The translations under genes were made by a program, and so were the position numbers. From contig NZ_CP007033.1 of NCBI RefSeq assembly GCF_000512895.1, forward strand, positions 1,289,001-1,353,000: 64,000 nt of DNA, written 5' to 3'. Positions 37,010 to 43,776 of the stretch are shown here, in pieces (positions within the stretch are counted from its first letter, which is position 1; each line of letters begins with the position of its first letter). The notes beneath the pieces are model-generated. The model saw only the letters and a program-made list of their open reading frames with translations. It did not search any database and was not told the origin of the DNA. The DNA comes from Dehalobacter restrictus DSM 9455. GTDB lineage: Bacteria > Bacillota > Desulfitobacteriia > Desulfitobacteriales > Syntrophobotulaceae.

Positions 37010-38162
37010 TGTTGGCATCGGAGCAATGCCGGATGCAGCCCAATATGGCGATGAAGGAAGCAATACACTTGCGAATATATCCAAGCAGGCAGGCGGATTG
37101 AAAATCCCGAATCTTGAGCGTATGGGTCTTGGCAACGCACGCGAAATTCCTTTTGTTTCTCCCCAAAGCAATCCTGCCGCAAATTACGGGTTCATGGCTG
37201 AAAGATCAAAAGGCAAGGATACCATCACCGGCCATTGGGAAATGACCGGTATCATTCTGGATCAGGCCTTCCCAACTTTTCCGTCCGGCTTTCCAAATGA
37301 TTTTATCAGAAGGTTTGAAGAACGAATCGGCCGGCTGACTTTAGGCAATGAGGTGGCATCCGGCACGGAAATTATGCAGCGCCTCGGGGCAGAGCATGTC
37401 AGGACTGGACAACCGATTGTTTATACCTCAGCCGATTCGGTATTCCAGATTGCGGCGCATGAAGGGGTCATCCCGCTAAGCGAACTGATGGAAATATGCA
37501 GAATTGCCCGGGAAATGCTGCAGGGTGAATTACGGGTTGCCCGCGTTATTGCGCGTCCTTTTCTCGGTGAAGCAGGCAATTATCAACGAACGACCAACAG
37601 GCATGATTTTGCAGTTGACCCCCCTGCCAGAACACTGCTGGACAGGATTACTGAAGCCGGGCAGAAGGTGTTGGCAGTCGGCAAAATCAACGATATCTTT
37701 AATGGCAAAGGAGTCAGTGAGCATGTCAGCTCCCGTGGAAATGACGATGGAATCAGCAAGACTCTTGAATATCTGCGGCGGGATGACCCCGGCTTGATTT
37801 TTACAAACCTTGTTGATTTTGATATGGTTTATGGACACCGCAATAATGTCAGGGGTTATGCCGAGGCCCTTGAGGCCTTTGATGCCAGAATTCCGGAAAT
37901 TACCGGCATTCTCAGGCAGGATGATATCCTGTTTATTACGGCCGACCATGGCTGTGATCCGACGACAGCAAGCACAGATCATTCCCGGGAATACGTTCCG
38001 CTGCTTGTTTACGGGCCGAAGCTGAAGCAGGGAGTGAATCTTGGACAGAGAGCCTGCTTTGCAGATCTTGGAGCGACCATTGCCGAATATTTAGGGGTAC
38101 AGTGGCTTGAAAACGGAACCAGTTTTTATACGGAATTAAAAGGAGAGAACCAGCATGATTAA
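36978..38162 (+). CDS. deoB: Phosphopentomutase
   Basis: The 394-residue metalloenzyme interconverts ribose/deoxyribose 1- and 5-phosphates. It has an alkaline phosphatase-like core with metal ligands in ILIVMDSVGIGAMPDA and ITADHGCDPTT and the phosphorylated Thr region SKGKDTITGHWEM. ATG 36978 follows AGGAGG and lies inside the xerD end. It is in an operon with punA and pdp for nucleoside salvage. Confidence 0.95.
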   Translation: MVRAILIVMDSVGIGAMPDAAQYGDEGSNTLANISKQAGGLKIPNLERMGLGNAREIPFVSPQSNPAANYGFMAERSKGKDTITGHWEMTGIILDQAFPTFPSGFPNDFIRRFEERIGRLTLGNEVASGTEIMQRLGAEHVRTGQPIVYTSADSVFQIAAHEGVIPLSELMEICRIAREMLQGELRVARVIARPFLGEAGNYQRTTNRHDFAVDPPARTLLDRITEAGQKVLAVGKINDIFNGKGVSEHVSSRGNDDGISKTLEYLRRDDPGLIFTNLVDFDMVYGHRNNVRGYAEALEAFDARIPEITGILRQDDILFITADHGCDPTTASTDHSREYVPLLVYGPKLKQGVNLGQRACFADLGATIAEYLGVQWLENGTSFYTELKGENQHD

Positions 38163-38988
38163 TGAACAAGTCATGACGACATGGCTGAATGATGCCCAAA
38201 ATTTTCTGCTCAAGAAAATCCCATATATTCCTGAACTAGGAATCATTCTGGGTTCAGGTCTTGGCAAGCTGGCCGAACTTGTGGAAGATGCGGTCGTTAT
38301 TCCGTACAGTGAGATCCCGCATTTTCCTGTGTCTACCGTTACAGGGCATTCCGGCAAGCTGATTGTCGGAACACTGGGGGACAGAAAGGTCATGGCTCTC
38401 CAGGGACGTTTCCATTATTACGAAGGTTATGAGATGCATGAAGTGACTTTCCCCGTCCGTCTGATGCAAACGATCGGGATGAAAGGCTTGGTCGTGACCA
38501 ATGCCGCCGGCGGCATCCATCCGGACTACCGTCCCGGTGATCTGATCGTGATCAAAGACCATATCAATCTGACTGGAAGCAATCCGCTGCGCGGAGCGAA
38601 TCTCAGCAATCTTGGACCGCGTTTTCCGGATCTCAGTGAAGCCTATGACGGCAAATGGAGAGAGCTGGCGCTCTCCCTGATGACGGAGCACGGCTTGAAT
38701 CCACGGCAGGGAGTCTATGCGGCTCTCAGCGGACCGAGCTATGAGACGCCTTCGGAAATCCGTTATTTGAGAACGATTGGGGCCGACCTTGTTGGGATGT
38801 CCACCGTACCGGAAGTCATTGTTGCGAATCACGGCGGGATGAAAGTGCTCGGCATTTCATGTGTGACCAACATGGCCGCCGGGATCTTGGAGCAAAAGCT
38901 CGACCATCAGGAGGTATTGGCGACGGCGGATCGAATTGAGGAGACGTTTCTGCGGTACATGGGGCAGCTAATCGCGTTGCTGGACTAA
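38155..38988 (+). CDS. punA: Purine nucleoside phosphorylase
   Basis: The 277-residue enzyme splits purine (deoxy)nucleosides with phosphate. Landmarks are ILGSGLGKLAE, the phosphate site TGHSGKLIVG, FHYYEGY, VVTNAAGGI, GPSYETPSEIR and GMSTVPEVIVANH. It overlaps deoB by 8 nt. The ribose 1-phosphate released feeds DeoB. Confidence 0.95.
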   Translation: MINEQVMTTWLNDAQNFLLKKIPYIPELGIILGSGLGKLAELVEDAVVIPYSEIPHFPVSTVTGHSGKLIVGTLGDRKVMALQGRFHYYEGYEMHEVTFPVRLMQTIGMKGLVVTNAAGGIHPDYRPGDLIVIKDHINLTGSNPLRGANLSNLGPRFPDLSEAYDGKWRELALSLMTEHGLNPRQGVYAALSGPSYETPSEIRYLRTIGADLVGMSTVPEVIVANHGGMKVLGISCVTNMAAGILEQKLDHQEVLATADRIEETFLRYMGQLIALLD

Positions 38989-39097
38989 CGGTATGCATTA
39001 TAGGCATGCTTTCACGCCTGGAAACCTCTTCAGGGGCTGTCTGGGTTTCCAAATTACTTTAGGGGTAGATCTCCGTGTAAAAATTCTATTTGGGTAG

Positions 39098-39202
39098 GTC
39101 AGCGTGCCACAGCACCGCTCTTCGGCTATTGCGCCCTCCGTGGCGCAAAAAGCCGCGCTACGCAATCCTGCTCCGCTCTTCGCGGAGCCGTGGCACGCTG
39201 AC
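39098..39202. repeat. 105-bp palindromic repeat, copy A
   Basis: Its ends are a perfect 13-bp inverted repeat (39098-39110 with 39190-39202). Inside are smaller hairpins (GCGCC...GGCGC, CTCCGC...GCGGAG). Bases 39110-39159 are identical, in inverted orientation, to 39471-39520 of copy B. It is the first part of a 573-bp gene-free gap between punA and pdp. Confidence 0.85.
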
Positions 39203-39428
39203 TGATCTGAGGGTTTTATTTCAGCGCAGATAATCGCAGATGATTGTTGAAAATACAGTTGTTCCAATGATAACTCATTTCTTTAGCTGGAAGCCTCATC
39301 TATTAACTGTGAGCTTTGTTCATCTGTGGATGTAGGGTTGTCGCTTTCGTATTGAAATGCTTGCGACAATGCCATGATAAAACGCTTCTTACATCATGAC
39401 ATGCACAATAGACTTAGACTTGTAATCA

Positions 39429-39532
39429 GTCTGGGTGTCACAACTCCGCGAGAAGCGGAGCACGATGCGGAGCGCGGCTTTTTGCGCCACGGAGGGCGCA
39501 ATAGCCGAAGAGCGGTGCTGTGACACACAGAC
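39429..39532. repeat. 104-bp palindromic repeat, copy B (inverted)
   Basis: Its terminal arms (39429-39442 with 39519-39532) pair with one mismatch. The arm sequence differs from copy A, yet both arms changed together. A 50-nt internal block is identical to copy A. The 226 bp between the copies has no gene. Confidence 0.85.
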
Positions 39533-39561
39533 CAGCCCCAAATAAATAGTTATAAGGCGGC

Positions 39562-40872
39562 ATGAATACGATGAGAATGGTTGAGCTGATTGAAAAGAAG
39601 AAAAACGGCTATCCGCTGACGCGGGAGGAGATCAGGTTTATCGTTCAGGGTTATGTTCAAGGAAAAATCCCGGACTATCAGGTCTCGGCCTGGGCGATGG
39701 CGGTCTATTTTAAGGGAATGACCGTTCAGGAGACATCGGAGCTGACCATGGCGATGGCGGAGAGCGGAGACCAGCTTGAACTGTCCCTTCCGGGGAAAGT
39801 ATTTGTCGATAAGCACAGTTCCGGAGGTGTCGGGGACAAGACTACGCTGGTTGTCGCTCCGCTGGTGGCGGCCTGCGGCGTCCCGGTTGCCAAGATGTCC
39901 GGTAGAGGACTCGGACACACTGGGGGAACCATCGACAAACTCTCTGCTATTCCCGGATTCCGGGTCGAGTTAGGAGAGCAGGAATTCCTGCAGCAGGTCG
40001 GCAGGATCGGCTTAGCGGTTATCGCTCAGACCGGAAGGATGGTTCCAGCAGATAAAAAACTCTATGCCTTACGGGATGTTACGGCAACCATCGATTCGAT
40101 TCCGATGATCGCTTCTTCGATCATGAGCAAAAAGATTGCTGCGGGTGCCCAGGGAGTTGTGCTGGATGTAAAATACGGCTCAGGTGCCTTTATGGCGACT
40201 TTGGAAGAAGCTGAAACACTGGCGGAAATCATGATTGGGATCGGTAAAAATCTGGGCAGAGATATGGTGGCGGTACTGAGCAGTATGGATCAGCCGCTCG
40301 GGAGGGCCGTCGGCAATGGTATTGAAGTTCTCGAGGCGATTGAGTGTCTGCAGGGGAACGGACCTGATGATTTAATGGAAGTGTGTCTGGAACTGGCAAG
40401 CTGGATGCTTGTGCTCGGGAAGAAAGCTGCTACAATCACGGAAGCTGGCGAGATCCTGAAAGATACACTGCAGAGCGGCAGGGCCTGGGAGAAATTTTTG
40501 GCGTTTGTTCAAGCCCAGGGAGGCGATACGGCCGTGCTGCATGCCAAAAACCTGCCCTTGGCTTCAGAGAAAATCGTTTATAAAGCCGAAAGAGCAGGTT
40601 ATATTCAGCATATTGATGCCCGGAAGATTGGACTTCTGGCCATGGTTCTTGGAGCCGGCCGGGAAAACAAAGACAGTGAGATCGACTTTGGCGCAGGCGT
40701 TTATCTGTTGAAAAAGGCCGGTGACGCAGTTCAAGCCGGTGAGCCATTATGCATGCTGCATACTTCTTCTGCCGAAAAAAGTTCGCTTGGATTGGCAAAG
40801 GCTGCAGAGGCGATTACAATTGGCGAAGAAAAGCCGCTGCTTAAGCCAACGGTTTCGACAGTGATCCGGTAA
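39562..40872 (+). CDS. pdp: Pyrimidine-nucleoside phosphorylase
   Basis: The 436-residue enzyme splits uridine, thymidine and related nucleosides. Signatures are KHSSGGVGDKTTLVVAPL (phosphate loop), KMSGRGLGHTGGTIDKL and VLDVKYGSGAFM. It completes the deoB-punA-pdp salvage set. The 573-bp gap with two palindromic repeats separates it from punA, so it may have its own promoter or rely on readthrough. Confidence 0.95.
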   Translation: MNTMRMVELIEKKKNGYPLTREEIRFIVQGYVQGKIPDYQVSAWAMAVYFKGMTVQETSELTMAMAESGDQLELSLPGKVFVDKHSSGGVGDKTTLVVAPLVAACGVPVAKMSGRGLGHTGGTIDKLSAIPGFRVELGEQEFLQQVGRIGLAVIAQTGRMVPADKKLYALRDVTATIDSIPMIASSIMSKKIAAGAQGVVLDVKYGSGAFMATLEEAETLAEIMIGIGKNLGRDMVAVLSSMDQPLGRAVGNGIEVLEAIECLQGNGPDDLMEVCLELASWMLVLGKKAATITEAGEILKDTLQSGRAWEKFLAFVQAQGGDTAVLHAKNLPLASEKIVYKAERAGYIQHIDARKIGLLAMVLGAGRENKDSEIDFGAGVYLLKKAGDAVQAGEPLCMLHTSSAEKSSLGLAKAAEAITIGEEKPLLKPTVSTVIR

Positions 40873-41285: not shown

Positions 41286-41407
41286 GTAAGCGTAAACCAT
41301 GTAGGCGGATTGTCATAGAATCAGCAGAATGAGAGAATATCCCAAAGAGTCTAAGTGTCACCAAAAGAGTCTAAGGTAGACATTTAGATAGAATGGGAGT
41401 GACTCAA

Positions 41408-41740
41408 ATGGAGCAAAGCCTGCAAACCTTAAGCGTAAACCAACGGCTGGCCGAGTGGAGCGAGCGGATCTCATCCTGCCGGAACAGTGGAATAAGCATC
41501 AGGCAATGGTGCCTGGAAAACGGGATTGTCGAGAAAACATATTACTATTGGCAACGCCGAGTGTTTAAAGCATTGACCACGCATCAAGAGCCGTACTTTG
41601 CCAGAGTTCCCGTTGAACGCCGGAATGACTGTCTGGAAATAGCGGCAACAGTGCGCATCGGAAATGCCGAAGCCGACATTTACCCCAGCGCAGATGCATC
41701 AGCCATTGAAGCAATCTGCCGCGCGCTGAAGTCATGCTGA
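41408..41740 (+). CDS. tnpA: IS66 accessory protein TnpA
   Basis: The 110-residue protein has a helix-turn-helix typical of IS66 OrfA: EWSERISSCRNSGISIRQWC and VEKTYYYWQRRVF. ATG 41408 follows GGGAGTGA. It overlaps tnpB by 7 nt. It is needed with TnpB for IS66 transposition in some members. Confidence 0.88.
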   Translation: MEQSLQTLSVNQRLAEWSERISSCRNSGISIRQWCLENGIVEKTYYYWQRRVFKALTTHQEPYFARVPVERRNDCLEIAATVRIGNAEADIYPSADASAIEAICRALKSC

Positions 41741-42090
41741 ATGATTTCACCGGAGCCGACTGCATCTATATTGCCTGCGGATACACCGATCTTCGATGCG
41801 GGATTGACGGTCTATCTGGAATCGTCCAGCAGAAGTTTCGGCTGGATCCGTTTTCGAGCACCCTGTTTCTATTTTGCGGACGCCGATGTGACCGGATAAA
41901 AGCTCTGTATTGGGAAGGCAATGGGTTTGTTCTCCTGTACAAACGGCTTGAAAACGGAAGGTTTCAGTGGCCGCGTAGCCCCGCCGAAGCGCAGGCGCTT
42001 ACCCCACAGCAGTACCGGTGGCTAATGGAAGGTTTAAGCGTAGAACAACCCAAAGCACACCGTCCGGCGTCAGGCCTCTGCATGGTTTAA
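41734..42090 (+). CDS. tnpB: IS66 accessory protein TnpB (Orf2)
   Basis: The 118-residue protein carries the TnpB hallmark YIACGYTDLRCGIDGL, FLFCGRRCDRIKALYW and the final ALTPQQYRWLMEGL. It is the small conserved accessory protein of IS66 elements, not the RNA-guided nuclease of the same name. Confidence 0.93.
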   Translation: MLNDFTGADCIYIACGYTDLRCGIDGLSGIVQQKFRLDPFSSTLFLFCGRRCDRIKALYWEGNGFVLLYKRLENGRFQWPRSPAEAQALTPQQYRWLMEGLSVEQPKAHRPASGLCMV

Positions 42091-42174
42091 GAAGGCTCAG
42101 AAAGGGTTCGAAAAGAATACTGGAAACCCTTGAAAACACTGGAAAAACTGGCTTTTTCATGGTATAATTTTGTT

Positions 42175-43776
42175 ATGAAAGAGCTACAAAAAAATGAGAT
42201 AAATAACGCCGAAATGGTCACCATTTCACGTGCGGAATATGAAGCACTTAAGGCACACAACACAGAGTTAAACAAACAGATTGAGTTGCTTCTGCAACAG
42301 ATACGCCTGGGCCAAAAGAAACGCTTCGGATCTTCCTCCGAAAAAACGCAGGAAGCGGTCATGGAGCAACTGAGCCTTTTGTTTAACGAGGCAGAAGCGT
42401 ATATTAAAATCGAGTCACCAGAGAAAACAAAAGTTGCTGCCCATACCCGCCAAAAGCGTTCCGGCAGCCTTGAGGAAATCCTGCCGGATAATGTCCCCGT
42501 TGAAGTCGTTGAGCATCGTCTTTCTGAGGAAGAACGGCTTTGTGCAGCCTGCGATACTGTCATGCAGGAAATCGGCAAGGAAGTCCGCCGCAGCCTTGTA
42601 ATTGTTCCGCCACAGGTAAAAATCCGTGAAGACCGGTATTTCAGCTATGCCTGCCTGACCTGCAAAGCAGAGGCCTTGGAAACCCCCGTGTTGAAAACAC
42701 GGAAAGATAAACCCGTCATCTCCGGAAGCTTTGCCTCCCCGGAAGCGATAGCTCACATCATGACCCAGAAATTCGTCATGTGTTCTCCCCTTTACCGACA
42801 GGAACAGGAGCTGAATCGAAGCGGTGTGATGCTATCCCGTCAGACGATGTCCAGCTGGATCTTAAGAGTAGCCGAGGACTGGTTGAAACCAGTGTATGAG
42901 GAGATGCACCGACGGCTCTTGCAGCACAGTGTTCTCTTCGCGGATGAGACCACCTTGCAAGTACTCAAAGAACCAGGCAAGAAGGCGCAAGCCAAAAGCT
43001 ACATGTGGATGTACAGAACCGGCGGGGATACAGAGCACCCGCTCATACTTTATGAATACAAGCCGGATCGAAAAGCTGAAAACCCGAAGAAATTTTTGGA
43101 AGGATTCTCCGGATACCTGCATGCGGATGGTTATCAGGCTTATTACACGTTGCCGGAAAACATCACGGTAGTCGGTTGCTGGGCCCATGCTCGGCGTAAA
43201 TTTGATGAGGCGGTCAATTCCTTGCCAAAATCCGAGCAAAAAGGATCTTCGGCAGTAATTGGGCAAGAGTATTGCAACAAGCTATTCTCGATTGAGGATA
43301 AGCTTAAATGTCTTACCCCTGAAGAACGATATACCCAGCGGCTGGAGTTGGAAAAACCGGTTCTGGATGCCTTCCTGACTTGGGCACAAACAAGAAACGC
43401 AGCTCCGAAGTCTGCCCTTGGAAAAGCCTTATATTATCTGCAACAGCAGTGGCCTCACTTGATAGAGTATCTGAAGGACGGCCGGCTGGAGCTCTCTAAC
43501 AACCGAGCAGAACGGAGTATAAAACCTTTTGTCATGAGCCGAAAAAACTTTCTATTCGCAAATACGCCGAATGGTGCCCAGGGCAGTGCAATAATTTATA
43601 GCCTAATTGAAACCGCCAAGGAGAATGACCTTGATCCGTACAGGTATCTGGTATATGTCCTGAACACTGCTCCTAACATTGATCAAACACATCCAGACTG
43701 GGTGATTCCATTACTCCCGGCAAATGCTCCTGAGCATTGCCGAGTACCGTATGCTAAGAGCAAATGCGACGAATGA
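42175..43776 (+). CDS. tnpC: IS66 transposase TnpC
   Basis: The 533-residue DDE transposase has an N-terminal coiled coil (about 20-50), a GQKKRFGSSSEKT basic region, a Cys-containing zinc-like segment (LCAACDTVMQEIG, YACLTCKAE) and a catalytic core with FADETTLQVL, LHADGYQAYY and LSNNRAERSIKPFVMSRKNF. ATG 42175 is preferred over TTG 42130. It is full length. Confidence 0.95.
   Translation: MKELQKNEINNAEMVTISRAEYEALKAHNTELNKQIELLLQQIRLGQKKRFGSSSEKTQEAVMEQLSLLFNEAEAYIKIESPEKTKVAAHTRQKRSGSLEEILPDNVPVEVVEHRLSEEERLCAACDTVMQEIGKEVRRSLVIVPPQVKIREDRYFSYACLTCKAEALETPVLKTRKDKPVISGSFASPEAIAHIMTQKFVMCSPLYRQEQELNRSGVMLSRQTMSSWILRVAEDWLKPVYEEMHRRLLQHSVLFADETTLQVLKEPGKKAQAKSYMWMYRTGGDTEHPLILYEYKPDRKAENPKKFLEGFSGYLHADGYQAYYTLPENITVVGCWAHARRKFDEAVNSLPKSEQKGSSAVIGQEYCNKLFSIEDKLKCLTPEERYTQRLELEKPVLDAFLTWAQTRNAAPKSALGKALYYLQQQWPHLIEYLKDGRLELSNNRAERSIKPFVMSRKNFLFANTPNGAQGSAIIYSLIETAKENDLDPYRYLVYVLNTAPNIDQTHPDWVIPLLPANAPEHCRVPYAKSKCDE

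Follow-up and report, generated by a model that had tools for sequence, protein, structure and literature searches.

A dispersed, probably MITE-derived repeat family of Dehalobacter with a covarying branched-hairpin module, present as an inverted pair between punA and pdp

Introduction

Bacterial MITEs are described in two papers (PMC2229807 and PMC10969869) as intergenic elements that have terminal inverted repeats, a target duplication and a long paired structure, and that are moved in trans. The Dehalobacter repeats analyzed here resemble ERIC/IRU, Correia/NEMIS, RUP and QMITE2 in their size of about 100–250 bp, terminal inverted repeats, intergenic location and pairing, but their units have a CTAG target and other ends. 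Unlike those MITEs, they carry a conserved internal branched module with many different self-pairing arm sequences, which persists after the ends are lost and is also carried by a transposon of another type. REPINs, as described in PMC3116915, are extragenic inverted doublets that form hairpins and show compensatory changes. The Dehalobacter copies are likewise extragenic, compensated and arranged as inverted hairpin doublets; however, they lack a consistent Y1 transposase, have terminal repeats with CTAG at both ends, and contain a 105-nt module instead of a short REP. Double-hairpin elements of fungal mitochondria are small mobile elements as well, whose stems vary in sequence while pairing is kept, but those are mitochondrial and have another anatomy.

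We examined a stretch of 64,000 nucleotides of Dehalobacter restrictus DSM 9455 (NZ_CP007033.1, positions 1,289,001 to 1,353,000), referred to as the window, in which a pair of inverted structured repeats had been predicted between two nucleoside salvage genes. The literature searched contained no paper describing these repeats, and none was found that joined Dehalobacter with miniature inverted repeats. The main text of the D. restrictus PER-K23 genome paper (PMC3910700) mentions no repeats, MITEs, palindromes, insertion sequences or intergenic regions, and two further Dehalobacter genome papers treat insertion sequences and other repeats, with MITE and palindrome absent from them.

Results

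In the window, two structured repeats of about 105 bp were found in the punA-pdp gap, inverted and tail to tail. Domain matches of both neighbors confirmed this location: the upstream gene punA (38155..38988, + strand) encodes a purine nucleoside phosphorylase (PF01048), and the downstream gene pdp (39562..40872, + strand) a pyrimidine-nucleoside phosphorylase with the PYNP domains PF00591, PF02885, and PF07831. Copy 1 of the branched-hairpin module lies at 39098..39202 on the + strand (covariance-model span 39086-39214, 132.9 bits), and copy 2 at 39429..39532 on the − strand (span 39417-39544, 129.9 bits). The left arm of copy 1 (39098..39110, GTCAGCGTGCCAC) pairs with its right arm (39190..39202, GTGGCACGCTGAC), and these arms differ from those of copy 2, which on its own strand read GTCTGTGTGTCACA (left, 39519..39532) and TGTGACACCCAGAC (right, 39429..39442) and pair with one mismatch. 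Folds of both copies on both strands beat 200 of 200 dinucleotide shuffles, with z scores of −6.2 and −5.9 for the two strands of copy 1 and −4.5 and −3.9 for those of copy 2. Thus, alignment and folds bore out the predicted repeats with differing yet self-pairing arms. The identical internal core was also present, but measured 52 nt in register (39108-39159 in copy 1) and not the 50 nt claimed. A 20-nt core pattern allowing up to three mismatches occurred twice in the window, versus 0.02 occurrences expected. The spacer between the copies (39203..39428) is homologous in the congeners G001 and G002, and largely different in G003 and G004.

Several further features were observed around the pair. 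Two stretches resembling the module start (GGGGCTGTCTGGG.. and GGGGTAGATCTCCGTG..) lie upstream of copy 1 at 39020-39100, as if a row of truncated copies stood there, and similar stretches lie upstream of the left copy at punA-pdp of G003. Just 3′ of pdp, at 41393-43776, there is an IS66-type insertion sequence encoding TnpB_IS66 and DDE_Tnp_IS66 proteins.

The original prediction had looked to further copies in the genome or its relatives, and dozens were detected in both. In the single-contig genome from which it was taken (2,943,336 bases), the 105-bp query found 45 matches with E ≤ 10, and this genome holds about 40 to 50 family copies. At E ≤ 0.001, the five Dehalobacter genomes yielded 37, 41, 42, 39, and 40 matches; in the four other than that of the window, 40 candidates each were scored, and their counts are lower bounds. 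Using a 61-base core query, the repeats were detected in 9 of the 25 genomes searched within the taxonomic family and in 9 of the 82 searched across the class; the carriers were all five Dehalobacter genomes and members of three other genera of the same family, and the 57 genomes of other families in the class gave no match. Furthermore, no family match was found in collections of plasmids (72,556 records) and phages (50,697 records), and the named genome collection yielded five stretches, all in two 'Peptococcaceae bacterium' assemblies. The inverted pair at punA-pdp itself occurs in five of five Dehalobacter genomes, with the second copy of G004 scoring only 49.8 bits; among eight further relatives listed at this locus, a fused head-to-head element takes the place of the pair in one, G008 of another genus, and seven have none. 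The catalog of copies used below covers selected stretches of the genomes, those of G001 and G002 having been picked from match lists with pairs first.

The complete unit was best recognized in G004. There, CTAG and a terminal repeat of the TACAACGTT type are followed, after about 40 bp, by the module of about 105 nt, and a further 35 bp or so separate the module from the terminal repeat in inverted form and a second CTAG; the total length is 191–258 bp. The unit ends, CTAGTACAACGTTCT and its inverse, occurred 40 times with at most one mismatch, compared with none for the reversed control. Among the 27 G004 copies with 75-nt flanks, 12 were bounded by CTAGTA at their left end and by TACTAG at their right end, versus 0.0 expected by shuffling. 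Dispersal, together with the terminal inverted repeats and bordering CTAG seen in a congener, thus supported the MITE-like nature proposed in the original prediction. One G004 unit (L147, G004:1780869-1781067) lies within a host CTAGTATCC tandem repeat array, a position that would fit duplication of CTAG as the target; such arrays constitute a natural hotspot for CTAG targets. Both ends were kept in only 1 of 49 D. restrictus copies, 0 of 48 in G001 and 0 of 32 in G002. The window copies have no recognizable terminal repeat or CTAG, so they are assigned to the family through the module alone. Since the ends are intact in many G004 copies and mostly gone in D. restrictus, the former appear to be young copies and those of the window species old. 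In 20 G004 stretches at terminal repeats, no transposase or parent element with the same ends was found, and the search for a clean empty orthologous site of the unit found none; the best candidate, G001:727485, was rejected, as G000 (D. restrictus) retains a remnant there and G002 possibly has a deletion. Two other origins were discarded. Insertion of the core into pre-existing palindromes was ruled out because conservation extends past the arms (GGGTT.., ..TAATCT), and a composite transposon of pair plus spacer because non-orthologous spacers have just short stretches in common.

Among copies sharing the core, at least five arm classes are recognizable, and 89 different arm pairs were counted in 120 copies. 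This 120-copy set, which includes just three G004 copies, also underlies the ortholog-module and pair-type counts. Within it, 1,418 of 1,553 arm cells (91%) pair with their own partner, versus 65% when partners are taken across copies. When 25 copies were aligned with MAFFT (alignment A1), 94.2% of the cells were paired and both sides had changed in 19 of the 32 pairs; the covariation score was 0.375, versus 0.124 after shuffling and at most 0.085 with slid partners. The further alignments A2 and A3 were fitted to the covariance model and lean to its structure, whereas A1 was not fitted, and the structure was predicted from A1. The inner hairpin covaries too, and bases left unpaired in loops and junctions hardly vary from paralog to paralog. 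Own-end pairing is kept even in copies devoid of mobility ends, suggesting that the shape itself is kept. The original prediction had seen selection for pairing here; the preservation of pairing was verified by covariation, but a process with the same effect as selection would serve equally.

On the module strand of the 120 copies, the pair cells comprised 3,432 Watson-Crick, 43 G-T and 84 A-C. Selection on RNA of the module strand should favor G-U over A-C; G-U being the rarer of the two, either RNA of the other strand or pairing at the DNA level (hairpin, cruciform or templated correction) may be involved. In all cataloged modules, nearly every hairpin loop has TCC (GGA on the other strand), and loops of this kind are bound by CsrA-type proteins, which would be candidate binders here. 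Some modules are enlarged by extra hairpins with CCATCCATGG loops in the inner loop (L027, L029, L051, L053, L056, L003 of G000 and L093 of G001), and strings of CCATCCATGG-loop hairpins also stand beside some copies, for example L003. The enlarged inner hairpin is present in one and absent from the other of the orthologs G000:1110362 and G001:2119876, the flanks of which are 98.5% identical.

The persistence of the module was assessed in 49 ortholog pairs anchored by both flanks; these comparisons reuse genomes pairwise, and the counts are thus not independent. In the 31 pairs whose module was at least 88% identical, a cut that favors persistence, the module was 96.8% identical by substitutions versus 89.2% for the adjoining 60 + 60 nt, and gapped columns were 0.3 in the module versus 21 in the flanks. 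In the remaining 18 of 49 pairs, the module had changed more than the flanks. The 31 slow pairs showed one-sided changes in 29 cells, of which 23 were broken and 6 still paired, and two-sided changes in 13 cells, 10 of them still paired, versus about 0.8 doubles under independence. Over all 49 pairs, 60 of 68 double changes keep pairing and 8 do not. A-T to T-A flips between orthologs were also observed.

Close neighbor copies are almost always arranged as in the window: after three overlap artifacts with negative gaps were removed from 37 cases, 32 of 34 were tail to tail and 2 in tandem. Some of these tail-to-tail pairs have collapsed through fusion at the inner hairpin, and L030, L049, L005, L024 and G000:1573925 are pairs intact in G001 or G002 but single and fused in G000. 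In the window, the inner hairpin of the left copy (copy 1, 39124..39154), a probable conversion tract judged from the fold and from ortholog comparison, matches that of the right copy and not those of its left-hand orthologs in G001 and G003. Hence, going by the sequences compared, the identical core of the window pair most likely arose when the right copy converted the left one in D. restrictus, which would yield an identical core despite different arms. In G003 (C167 558-1068, L032), a different punA-pdp spacer lies between conserved outer flanks, which looks like an exchange of the middle part.

As to genomic context, 122 intergenic sites comprised 95 tandem, 24 convergent and 3 divergent gaps, compared with 70, 16 and 24, respectively, among 110 control gaps of at least 150 bp that contain no copies; open frames of at least 110 codons were used here instead of annotation, and orthologous sites were counted separately per genome. 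The copies thus avoid divergent, promoter-bearing gaps. Their orientation relative to the upstream gene was even, 61 being in the same and 63 in the opposite direction. A role at 3′ ends, such as message-end protection or attenuation, would fit this context.

A module of class D was also found in an IS1182-type insertion sequence of 2.04 kb, where it lies downstream of the gene for a 534-aa DDE transposase (DDE_Tnp_1_6/DUF772/DDE_Tnp_1 domains). Both D. restrictus copies and one G002 copy of the insertion sequence share the module, but the related insertion sequences of G009 and G011 (transposases 76% and 74% identical) have no module at that place. The module is therefore carried by a second, different element as well.

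Discussion

We consider it probable that the window repeats are ancient copies, no longer mobile, from a dispersed, non-autonomous MITE-like family of Dehalobacter and close relatives, whose units were inserted at CTAG in trans and whose structured module was retained. A putative transposase acting in trans would have placed the units at CTAG, and the module would have been retained because a stable structure on either strand may bring a benefit, or at least do no harm, at the 3′ ends of genes; protection of message ends or attenuation of read-through are candidate uses, and the influence on pdp suggested in the original prediction would be one such case. Selection would keep the pairing in combination with template switching and with conversion, both from arm to arm of a hairpin and from one partner copy to the other. 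The copies may accordingly be viewed as fossil MITEs, in which the branched-hairpin module outlived mobility, perhaps as a 3′-end structure.

It is possible, if somewhat unlikely, that these are neutral, dead MITEs whose arms stay paired solely through template-switching correction of quasi-palindromes and conversion between copies. The few G-T and A-C cells relative to Watson-Crick cells are as templated copying would give, and the A-T to T-A flips between orthologs, the partner conversion and the hairpin fusions also speak for templated correction. However, templated correction of arms leaves unexplained both the near-invariant unpaired loop and junction bases and the better conservation of slow modules than of their flanks. 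We favor the view that pairing is kept by some combination of selection and templated rewriting.

That the module is a structured RNA (an attenuator, a terminator-like or a protein-binding element) which transposition has spread and which now serves the host in many operons appears rather doubtful. The strong folds on both strands, the invariant TCC/GGA loops, the 3′-biased context and the place downstream of a transposase gene agree with this explanation, but the even orientation to the upstream gene and the missing G-U excess on the module strand do not. In addition, the module end lacks a terminator-typical U-run, the one terminator-like site, inside copy 1, is weak, against 0.8 expected per region, and none of the Rfam 15 families matched the window at gathering score, the better of two sub-threshold matches having an E value of 1.9. 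The REP-like alternative of the original prediction, in which REP/REPIN elements are moved by a RAYT (Y1) transposase, is very improbable: inverted doublets, hairpins, extragenic location and compensatory changes are REPIN-like and some copies start with GTAG, but a Y1 transposase is encoded in just two of the five Dehalobacter genomes, all of which hold about 40 copies, and the young copies carry terminal inverted repeats bordered on each side by CTAG, an apparent target duplication. Least of all do we credit a local inverted duplication of no wider meaning, which would account for the identical 52-nt core but is ruled out by dozens of dispersed copies in five genomes and by the pair at punA-pdp in all five.

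The repeat family is thus probably MITE-derived, with an unusually strong, long-kept covarying module, and belongs neither to a RAYT system nor to a known RNA family. More tentatively, and on balance doubtfully, the module could be a transferable device, common to CTAG MITEs and an IS1182-type element, which the host retains at the 3′ ends of genes once mobility is lost and whose arms are rewritten in concert. If so, each copy would have a private pairing code, and the repeats would represent a domesticated, self-correcting nucleic-acid structure and not junk. Bacterial MITEs are usually seen as decaying junk with a conserved sequence, whereas here the mobility ends have decayed and the internal structure stays paired across dozens of arm sequences and, at many sites, persists longer than the flanks. 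The orthologous sites of Dehalobacter offer a natural experiment that sets selection on nucleic-acid structure against templated hairpin correction, in repeats that stand in many gaps within operons of organohalide-respiring bacteria, organisms with a use in bioremediation.
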